Shown piece by piece: positions 30,262 through 33,128 of a DNA stretch of 64,000 nt. Below the pieces are notes generated by a model that was given only the letters and a program-made list of their open reading frames with translations, did no database searches and had not been told where the DNA came from. Each line of letters begins with the position of its first letter. Positions within the stretch are counted from its first letter, which is position 1. The translations under genes were made by a program, and so were the position numbers. The DNA is from Acidilobaceae archaeon (GTDB taxonomy: Archaea > Thermoproteota > Thermoprotei_A > Sulfolobales > Acidilobaceae), in contig JANXEI010000002.1 in assembly GCA_025058835.1 (NCBI GenBank), positions 248,001-312,000 on the forward strand, written 5' to 3'.

Positions 30262-31509
30262 GTGGTAAAGATGATCTCTCCGCACCACCCGTCGAGGGGA
30301 ATAGTTGGAGCAGTGAACAGGTATCTTGAGGGACACATAGTGATGCTCGGCGTTACAGCAAGCGTTTCCTCTTACAAGTCCGTAGACACTGCCAGGTGGC
30401 TGATGAGGAGGGGAGCACAGGTGATCCCAGTGATGACCCCAGAGGCGACTAAGTACGTAGGCCCTATGCTTTTCCACTGGGCTACGGGAGTGGAGCCTAT
30501 TGTGGAGCTGACGGGGGAGACGGAGCACGTTGGGCTGGTAGAGAAGGTCAGCTCCGTTGTCATAGCTCCCGCAACCCTGTCTACCATCGCAAAGGTTGCC
30601 TACGGCGTTGGGGACACCTCTGTCAGCATGGTGGCCATATCTGCGCTCGGCTATGGGAAAAGGGTGGCCTTTGTGCCTGCCATGCATGACAACTTGTACA
30701 ACGCTGAGCAGTACAGGAGGGCAAAGGCTATCCTGGAGGAGATGGGAGCCAAGATCGTCCCGCCCTTGCTGGAGGAGGGAGTGGCGAAGTATCCCCCTCC
30801 AGAGCTAGTAGGGAGGGTAGCCGCTGCCTTTACCTCGAGAGGGGAGGACCTGAAGGGCATGAGAGTGCTCGTGACGGGAGGGCCTACGAGGGAGTGGATA
30901 GACAGGGTTAGGTTCATCTCTAACCCGAGCAGCGGGATCATGGGGGTGGAGCTGGCAGCAGAGGCATGGGCTAGGGGGGCTACAGTCGACTTCGTCCACG
31001 GGCCTCTCAAAACGAGCGCTCCCCACTTCGTCAACAGCTTTAGGGTTGAGACGACTGCAGAGATGGCAGAGAGGGTAGCAGAGCTCAGCGAGAAGAACGC
31101 TTACGACATAGCCGTCTTTGCAGCAGCGCCCGTAGACTTCGCCCCAGCAGAGCTCTACGAAGGGAAGATCAGGAGCGGGAGGGAGCTACAGCTCCTGCTG
31201 AAGCCTACAGTAAAGGTGTTAAGCAGCCTTCGCAGCAGGCCAAAGGTTGTGATAGCTTTTGCTGCTGAGAGCACCATGGAGGAGGAGAAGCTGGTGGAGG
31301 CGGCAAGGGAAAAGCTTTCGAAGTACTCTGCAGACCTAGTAGTAGCGAACTCCGTGGGCTACGCCGGCACCGGCTTCGCTTCGGAGACCGACAGGGCGAT
31401 CCTGGTTTCTCACTCAGAGGCCAGGAGCCTTGGCCTGATGCACAAGGAACTGCTTGCCAGGCTCATATTCGATGAGGCCTTGAAGATAGCAAGGGGTGCG
31501 TCGAAATAA
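30262..31509 (+). CDS. coaBC: Bifunctional phosphopantothenoylcysteine synthetase/decarboxylase (CoaBC, Dfp)
   Basis: Catalyses two steps of CoA synthesis: joining cysteine to phosphopantothenate and FMN-dependent decarboxylation. Residues 1-190 are the flavoprotein CoaC half, with GVTASVSSYKSVD near 30 (FMN phosphate), a His in MLFHWATG near 75, the PALHDNMY-like PAMHDNLYNAEQ near 140 and GRGRV-like tail. Residues 195-415 are the CoaB half with GGPTREWIDRVRFISNPSSG near 210 and VANSVG near 365. It heads a cluster with pantoate kinase and phosphopantothenate synthetase, completing the archaeal route from pantoate. GTG 30262 and ATG 30271 are both possible starts. Confidence 0.96.
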   Translation: MVKMISPHHPSRGIVGAVNRYLEGHIVMLGVTASVSSYKSVDTARWLMRRGAQVIPVMTPEATKYVGPMLFHWATGVEPIVELTGETEHVGLVEKVSSVVIAPATLSTIAKVAYGVGDTSVSMVAISALGYGKRVAFVPAMHDNLYNAEQYRRAKAILEEMGAKIVPPLLEEGVAKYPPPELVGRVAAAFTSRGEDLKGMRVLVTGGPTREWIDRVRFISNPSSGIMGVELAAEAWARGATVDFVHGPLKTSAPHFVNSFRVETTAEMAERVAELSEKNAYDIAVFAAAPVDFAPAELYEGKIRSGRELQLLLKPTVKVLSSLRSRPKVVIAFAAESTMEEEKLVEAAREKLSKYSADLVVANSVGYAGTGFASETDRAILVSHSEARSLGLMHKELLARLIFDEALKIARGASK

Positions 31510-32345
31510 TCTGTGCCTCATCCCCCCATCACGTAACTGCCCTCTTCTCCCCCCGTTTCGGGGAGGACGCGAGGAGCACCGGCTCCCTTGGCATAGGGAT
31601 TGCTGTGGAGCCCAGGGCCAAGATCTGCACTGAGGGAGAGGAGGAGGCCCGCATGAGCCCTGTAGCTACCGTGAGAAGAGTAGCAGAGGTGCTGGGGGCA
31701 GAGGAGAAGATCCTTACGGTGCTCCCCCTCCCCGTCGGGGTCGGCTATGCTGTGAGCGCCTCCGCAGGGATAGCTGCAGCGCTAGCCCTTGGAGCTCAGA
31801 AGCATAAGGTCAGCGAACTCCTTGCCCTAGCCCACGAGGCAGAGGTGAGGGAGCGCACGGGGCTGGGGGACGTGCTCGCCATATCGTGCGGCATAGGCCT
31901 AGTTGCTAGACTGTCCCCTGGGGCCCCAGGGATCGGGAGGGCAGAGTGCAAACAGCTCCCCCCCAGCATCTCCCTAATCAGCGTTGCCGCGGCGAGGGAG
32001 CATGCCGGGGAGTACGTGAGGAGGTACACCTCCATGAGGCTCCACGAGGCGGCAGAACCCATCATAGCCAAGGTATCGGAGAGCCTGGACTTCCACCTGT
32101 TTGCTGAGGAAATCCTCAGGTTCAACTTAGAGAACGGCCTCATAAGGAGCGTGATAGGGGAGAAGGGGGAGGAGCTAGTGCTCAGGACGCCTGGCCTGAT
32201 AACGGCTTACGGCAAGAAGGGCCTAGTGTTGCTGGCAGTAGAGAGGAGCAGGGCGAGGGAGGCGGTGGAGCACCTCTCACCTCTGGGATATAGCTTGTTC
32301 TACCTCCGCCCCTCTAGCAGCAGCGTATCGTTAGAGGTGGTGTAG
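31506..32345 (+). CDS. Pantoate kinase (GHMP family) with apparent AUA start codon
   Basis: Phosphorylates pantoate in the archaeal CoA pathway. The family N-terminus is fully encoded: SSPHHVTALFSP then RSTGSLGIGIAV, matching the archaeal pantoate-kinase opening (P-A-H-I-T ... T-G-S-L-G-x-G), and GHMP motif PLPVGVGYAVSASAG follows. Yet from the preceding in-frame stop to this region there is no ATG, GTG or TTG; the first is a GTG at 31605, which would delete the substrate-binding N-terminus. The best start is ATA at 31506, overlapping the TAA of coaBC (AATAATC). That gives 279 residues. Either a rare AUA start or a base error explains this. Confidence 0.8.
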   Translation: MICASSPHHVTALFSPRFGEDARSTGSLGIGIAVEPRAKICTEGEEEARMSPVATVRRVAEVLGAEEKILTVLPLPVGVGYAVSASAGIAAALALGAQKHKVSELLALAHEAEVRERTGLGDVLAISCGIGLVARLSPGAPGIGRAECKQLPPSISLISVAAAREHAGEYVRRYTSMRLHEAAEPIIAKVSESLDFHLFAEEILRFNLENGLIRSVIGEKGEELVLRTPGLITAYGKKGLVLLAVERSRAREAVEHLSPLGYSLFYLRPSSSSVSLEVV

Positions 32346-33128
32346 ATGCGCTGGCACATCCCAGAGAGCCACCCTAGATACAAATCTCTGGTAGCAAGGG
32401 AGAAGGTAGTGGAGGCCTTCCTCGAGGGAGCTGTAGTTCCACAAGGCCTGATCGCGCAGGGGAGAGGGGAGGCCTTTGACTACCTGCTGGGAGAGGTCAG
32501 CCACCCCTTTGCCCTGCAGGCAGAGAGGGCAGCAGTGGCTGCCATGTTGCTTGCCCAGAAGCCAGTGATCTCCGTCAACGGGAACTACGCTGCGCTGGCA
32601 GCAGCGGAGATAGCAGAGCTCTCCTCTGAGCTAGGCGTGAAGGTTGAGGTCAACATATTCTACAGGACAGAGGAGAGGGTGGCGAAGATAGAGGGGATGC
32701 TGAGGAGGGCAGGCGTGAGGGAGGTGCTGGGAGCTTCGTGCGAGAAGACAAGGCTCCCTAACCTAGAGAGCCCGCGGGGCATAGTGTGCAAGGAGGGCAT
32801 ATACTCTGCAGACCTCGTCATGGTCTCCATAGAGGACGGCGACAGGACCAAGGCCCTTAGGGAGCTAGGGAAGAAGGTCATAGCCATCGACCTGAACCCC
32901 TTCAGCAGGACTGCCCAGCTGGCTCACATAACTATAGTGGACGAGGCAGTGAGGGCCACTCAGAACATGGTGAAGATCGCTCGGGAGCTGAAGGGGCTCG
33001 ACCGGCCCTCTCTAGAGAAGATACTCTCCTCTTTCGACAACGCGCGGGCCCTCTCAGAGGCCTTCAGAGCAATCATGGTTCGGCTAGAGGATGCCTCAAA
33101 GAGGGGCCTTCTGCTAGAGCCCCCCTAG
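32346..33128 (+). CDS. 4-phosphopantoate--beta-alanine ligase (archaeal phosphopantothenate synthetase)
   Basis: Joins 4-phosphopantoate to beta-alanine with ATP, replacing bacterial PanC/CoaA in archaea. At 260 residues it has the expected length. Family landmarks are the opening IPESHPRYKSLVAREKVVE, LLLAQ-like AAMLLAQKPVISVNGNYAALA near residue 70, VEVNIFYRTEERV near 100, and the late DLNPFSRTAQLAHITIVDEAVRA region (positions about 180-203), which is nearly invariant. The ATG directly follows the pantoate kinase stop, so coaBC, pantoate kinase and this ligase form one operon. The 3' end overlaps the convergent gene by 56 bp, the longest such overlap here. Confidence 0.95.
   Translation: MRWHIPESHPRYKSLVAREKVVEAFLEGAVVPQGLIAQGRGEAFDYLLGEVSHPFALQAERAAVAAMLLAQKPVISVNGNYAALAAAEIAELSSELGVKVEVNIFYRTEERVAKIEGMLRRAGVREVLGASCEKTRLPNLESPRGIVCKEGIYSADLVMVSIEDGDRTKALRELGKKVIAIDLNPFSRTAQLAHITIVDEAVRATQNMVKIARELKGLDRPSLEKILSSFDNARALSEAFRAIMVRLEDASKRGLLLEPP

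Follow-up and report, generated by a model that had tools for sequence, protein, structure and literature searches.

Where does translation of a pantoate kinase gene begin when its reading frame holds no conventional start codon ahead of the conserved N-terminus? AUA almost never serves as a start codon, and annotated prokaryote genomes contain very few starts outside the NTG set, one reason being that gene-finding programs do not search for such codons. The question is raised by one frame in the window (the whole stretch of 64,000 nucleotides analysed here), where an earlier note had proposed AUA, overlapping the stop codon of the upstream gene, as the only sensible start.

The pantoate kinase frame and its N-terminus

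The features of the locus are given below; the 5' coordinate of coaBC is that of the longest-ORF start.

30262..31509, plus strand: coaBC, bifunctional phosphopantothenoylcysteine decarboxylase / phosphopantothenate-cysteine ligase (TIGR00521, PF04127, PF02441), with stop TAA at 31507-31509
31473..31475, plus strand: TGA, the in-frame stop that closes the PoK frame upstream
31491..31499, plus strand: SD-like AAGGGGTGC, a 6/9 match to AGGAGGTGA, 6 nt from ATA, weak alone
31506..31508, plus strand: ATA, the proposed PoK start codon, aligned with the ATG of the sister species and in ATAA overlap with the coaBC stop
31506..32345, plus strand: predicted pantoate kinase (PoK), 279 codons and stop TAG (NF040725, PF00288, PDB 6jbc)
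31605..31607, plus strand: GTG, the first ATG/GTG/TTG of the PoK frame by codon reading
32346..33128, plus strand: 4-phosphopantoate--beta-alanine ligase (phosphopantothenate synthetase, PPS), with an ATG start (NF041123, NF010324, PF02006)

Direct reading of the codons shows that the PoK frame of SSPHHVTALFSP stays open between the TGA at 31473-31475 and the TAG at 32343-32345, with no ATG, GTG or TTG within codons 31476-31604. The earlier note had therefore been right that the gene lacks a canonical start ahead of its N-terminus and that the nearest one is a GTG 33 codons on: this is the GTG at 31605-31607, counted from the ATA at 31506-31508. It had also correctly placed this ATA over the coaBC stop, with which it shares the letters ATAA in a 4-nt overlap. 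The upstream in-frame TGA that it reported exists as well, one base away from the position given (about 31472-31474).

The protein is predicted to be an archaeal pantoate kinase of the GHMP superfamily. It matches PDB 6jbc over residues 2-243 (E 8.1e-13) and NF040725 (7.1e-17), scores 22.8 bits against PF00288 (cut-off 22.3), and carries both the GHMP glycine-rich loop PLPVGVGYAVSASAG and the GLGD motif, here TGLGDV. Its scores lie far under the NCBIfam equivalog cut-offs (61.3 bits vs 380, and 59.2 vs 500); because the two NCBIfam pantoate kinase models bear the names of other lineages (Meth, Thplsm), the assignment rests on homology together with gene neighbourhood. PoK is flanked by coaBC (TIGR00521 at 5.8e-88 and 295.6 bits, cut-off 219.7) and by PPS (NF041123 at 6.3e-91, NF010324 at 4.6e-106, PF02006 at 3.6e-72), and the order coaBC-PoK-PPS thus points to a CoA operon.

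The region ahead of the GTG appears to be part of the protein, since conserved columns fall within it and the alignment with 6jbc begins there. Across the 37 aligned PoK loci, 10 of the 42 columns conserved at 90% or more lie before GTG 31605, and residue 3 of 6jbc, a solved pantoate kinase, pairs in alignment with the residue that follows ATA. Starting at the GTG would remove this conserved N-terminus. By sequence, the window PoK belongs to the same family as PDB 6jbc and 6jbd, which we take to be the pantoate kinase of Thermococcus kodakarensis, and its N-terminus lies at the same place; the difference is in the start codon.

The junction in related genomes

The window's genome (G000) was compared with that of a sister species, the MAG SKW39 (Acidilobaceae archaeon, contig JAOAKH010000004; G003), its nearest relative among the family genomes used. 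At the junction, the sister has GAGGGGCAGCAG-ATG-ATC-TGC where the window has AAGGGGTGCGTCGAA-ATA-ATC-TGT, and the codon aligned with ATA 31506-31508 is an ATG that overlaps the coaBC stop as ATGA. Ahead of the GTG, the 34 codons aligned between the two species differ at 5 first, 2 second and 17 third positions, a third-position bias. The earlier note had suggested comparing orthologous junctions for a start at the same spot, and four genomes of the family (G003, G004, G016 and G025) have ATG there, at the same distance from PHH as the window's ATA. A canonical start is present at 35 of the 37 PoK loci; the two without one are those of G000 and G013.

The ATG in the same column of the sister, the same stop register and, more weakly, the SD-like AAGGGGTGC at the usual spacing support AUA as the sensible start, and we consider translation of the window PoK from AUA 31506-31508 to be the best explanation and a probable one. 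From an ancestral ATGA overlap, a single G-to-A transition would have made two changes at once, AUG becoming AUA at the PoK start and UGA becoming UAA at the coaBC stop. Ribosomes ending coaBC would halt over the AUA and probably re-initiate there; the SD-like AAGGGGUGC may hold the small subunit nearby, and the initiator tRNA would pair with AU, two of the three bases of AUA. The 16S 3' end in this genome is GGATCACCTCC. The SD-like AAGGGGTGC offers a run of 4, which about 13% of internal codons reach in both G000 and G003.

Re-initiation at the coaBC-PoK junction is plausible, given that this archaeon has many NTGA overlaps and that experiments in Haloferax and E. coli have measured coupling where genes overlap by a few bases (PMC10666635). 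The junction resembles the ATGA termination-reinitiation of these systems in its 4-nt stop/start overlap, which has the standard ATGA form in the sister species. It differs in that an AUA start would be paired with a UAA stop; the classes of overlap in that study are built on NTG starts. A figure cited within the same paper puts the efficiency of ATT in E. coli at ~0.3% of that of ATG.

At the other locus without a canonical start, the PoK of G013 (L009, near position 1501), the sequence reads GGGGTGA-CAAGCT-TTT-TAC-TGT, with no ATG, GTG or TTG left. The upstream gene there is not coaBC.

Alternative explanations

The alternative that survives best is that the A at 31508 arose as an error of assembly or consensus calling, or belongs to a minor strain, and that the real PoK start is ATG as in the sister. 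ATA and ATG differ by a single base, and this draft genome comprises 29 contigs. On the other hand, the 484-kb contig speaks for good coverage, and a priori an error is unlikely to fall on precisely this base. We regard such an error as unlikely.

Recent loss of the start is a further alternative: PoK would be decaying, or made in very small amounts, and pantoate would be phosphorylated by other means. On the G000 branch, PoK has indeed accumulated more amino-acid change than its neighbours coaBC and PPS (nonsynonymous:synonymous 32:14 vs 54:60, Fisher p 0.014, with few outgroups and saturated third positions), and this mild excess makes a weakened PoK function conceivable. However, the frame is intact across its 279 codons and keeps 41 of the 42 near-invariant columns of the 37-locus alignment. 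It is also the single PoK match in the genome, where PPS, which needs the PoK product, is intact, and decay is accordingly an improbable account.

PoK might also start at another non-canonical codon near the ATA, for example ATC 31509 or GTC 31500, as ATC or CTG is apparently used by other genes here; with the sister's ATG column matched by ATA alone, 6 nt from the SD-like element, we think this very improbable. A CoaBC-PoK fusion made by -1 frameshifting just ahead of the coaBC stop is scarcely credible. In its favour, PoK lies in the -1 frame relative to coaBC, whose end it overlaps. Against it, TCGAAATAATC lacks a heptamer of the form X XXY YYZ, folding of the 70-nt junction is no stronger than that of shuffled sequences (z 0.32), and the sister species has a plain ATG.

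Other genes of the genus without a canonical start

Initiation of PoK at AUA is believable, and not ad hoc, because other genes of the genus also appear to start non-canonically. For this comparison, ~1.1 Mb of G000 and 1.03 Mb of G003 were used, giving 1031 ortholog pairs. A first screen of ORF pairs returned 324 candidates, most of them antisense frames or overlaps with adjacent genes; filtering on third-position differences reduced these to 50, which were read by eye, and we claim no exact gene count. The identities of the genes with non-canonical starts were checked by Pfam. In several conserved genes among the 1031 pairs, aligned codons whose differences favour the third position precede any canonical start.

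Two of the clearest cases are found in both species. The uS4 gene (rps4) appears to start at the CTG of GGGGTGA-N6-CTG-GGA-GAC-CC in G000 and G003 alike (L191/L192; G000:C11:547256, G003:C47), and this CTG is limited to the two genomes, the other 28 of the 30 family loci having ATG, GTG or TTG at that codon. In MetRS, the arrangement is GGTGA-N6-CTG in both species (G000:C11:268297-268869, minus strand; G003:C22:33832). The first canonical codon of MetRS falls beyond the HLGT motif, the Pfam domain tRNA-synt_1g begins two residues after the CTG, and this CTG would be the sole plausible start in G000 and G003. A pattern search of the relatives' genomes for a MetRS ATG, GTG or TTG directly ahead of the motif gave no match in any of them. 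As the missing canonical starts of uS4 and MetRS are common to an independently assembled sister MAG, they are not errors.

Three more of the clearest cases concern G003. The THEP1-type NTPase has ATG in G000 and CTG in G003. In G003, uS9 appears to start at an ATA in ATAG overlap with the upstream stop, where G000 has TTA, and uS7 also appears to start at ATA (GGTGA-N6-ATA). Less certain candidates are CTG in aIF6, HflX and TatA, ATC in RadA and RNase P p30, and ATA in a nucleotidyltransferase and a cytochrome bd-type subunit.

In both species, the first 78 frame codons of RNase P p30 lack ATG, GTG and TTG; the candidate ATC lies before YADLS/YVDLS (G000:C22 minus strand, reverse-complement offset 406723; G003:C11 offset 57186).

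Non-canonical initiation would thus recur in the lineage of G000 and SKW39, across two assemblies, which is a stronger result than the AUA of PoK alone. This lineage may tolerate non-canonical starts generally, with CUG in uS4 and MetRS and probably CUG or AUH in several others. The wider proposal is that start-codon selection has been relaxed in an Acidilobaceae-family clade to which this species and SKW39, at the least, belong. Essential genes including uS4, MetRS, uS7, uS9, aIF6, TatA and PoK would begin there at CUG, AUA or other AUG near-cognates, and the choice would depend mainly on where the SD lies or on coupling to the upstream stop. We hold this proposal to be evenly balanced between true and false.

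If it is true, a lineage in which uS4 and MetRS are fixed at CUG and PoK has gone from AUG to AUA would lend itself naturally to the study of archaeal start stringency (aIF1, aIF2, SD strength and coupling). Standard annotation would then truncate or miss essential genes in such genomes. For MetRS, a gene finder limited to ATG, GTG and TTG would begin after the HLGT motif.

Among 61,358 ancestral AUG starts in annotated genomes, two switches to CUG and one to AUU have been recorded (PMC5622118), a background against which it is unusual for two related species to have CUG in both uS4 and MetRS. Like those rare non-NTG starts, the window AUA is a near-cognate that differs from AUG at a single base, and its gene has a possible SD; the difference is that several conserved genes of one lineage are affected here, including uS4 and MetRS. 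The word AUA does not occur in the text of that paper, and the limited collection of literature searched yielded no account of an archaeal AUA start.

At positions with a conserved SD, CTG is modestly raised (0.154 vs 0.109 overall), whereas ATA is not enriched (0.103 vs 0.109 overall). Nor is ATA enriched at 4-nt overlaps in G000, where the counts are ATA 11, GTA 14, TTA 13 and CTA 7. The AUA starts are thus best read as individual cases backed by alignment, not as a frequent class. In a genome-wide count of codons at a fixed distance from all AGGTGA-type sites, coding sequence drowned the signal.

Two candidate causes of the start tolerance were considered and rejected. Loss of aIF1 does not apply, as SUI1 is found in G000 and G003, and an altered initiator tRNA does not apply either, this tRNA being identical in both species with the usual A1-U72 and G-C pairs. 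With aIF1 present and the initiator tRNA ordinary, no cause was found.

Outside the window, a PrmA/HemK-like methyltransferase gene (G000:C22 near 390807, plus strand) has TCG where G003 has TTG. This TCG follows an 8-base SD match at standard spacing, and the first canonical codon lies 49 codons in. RNase HII of G003 likewise has TCG at the SD-spaced position.
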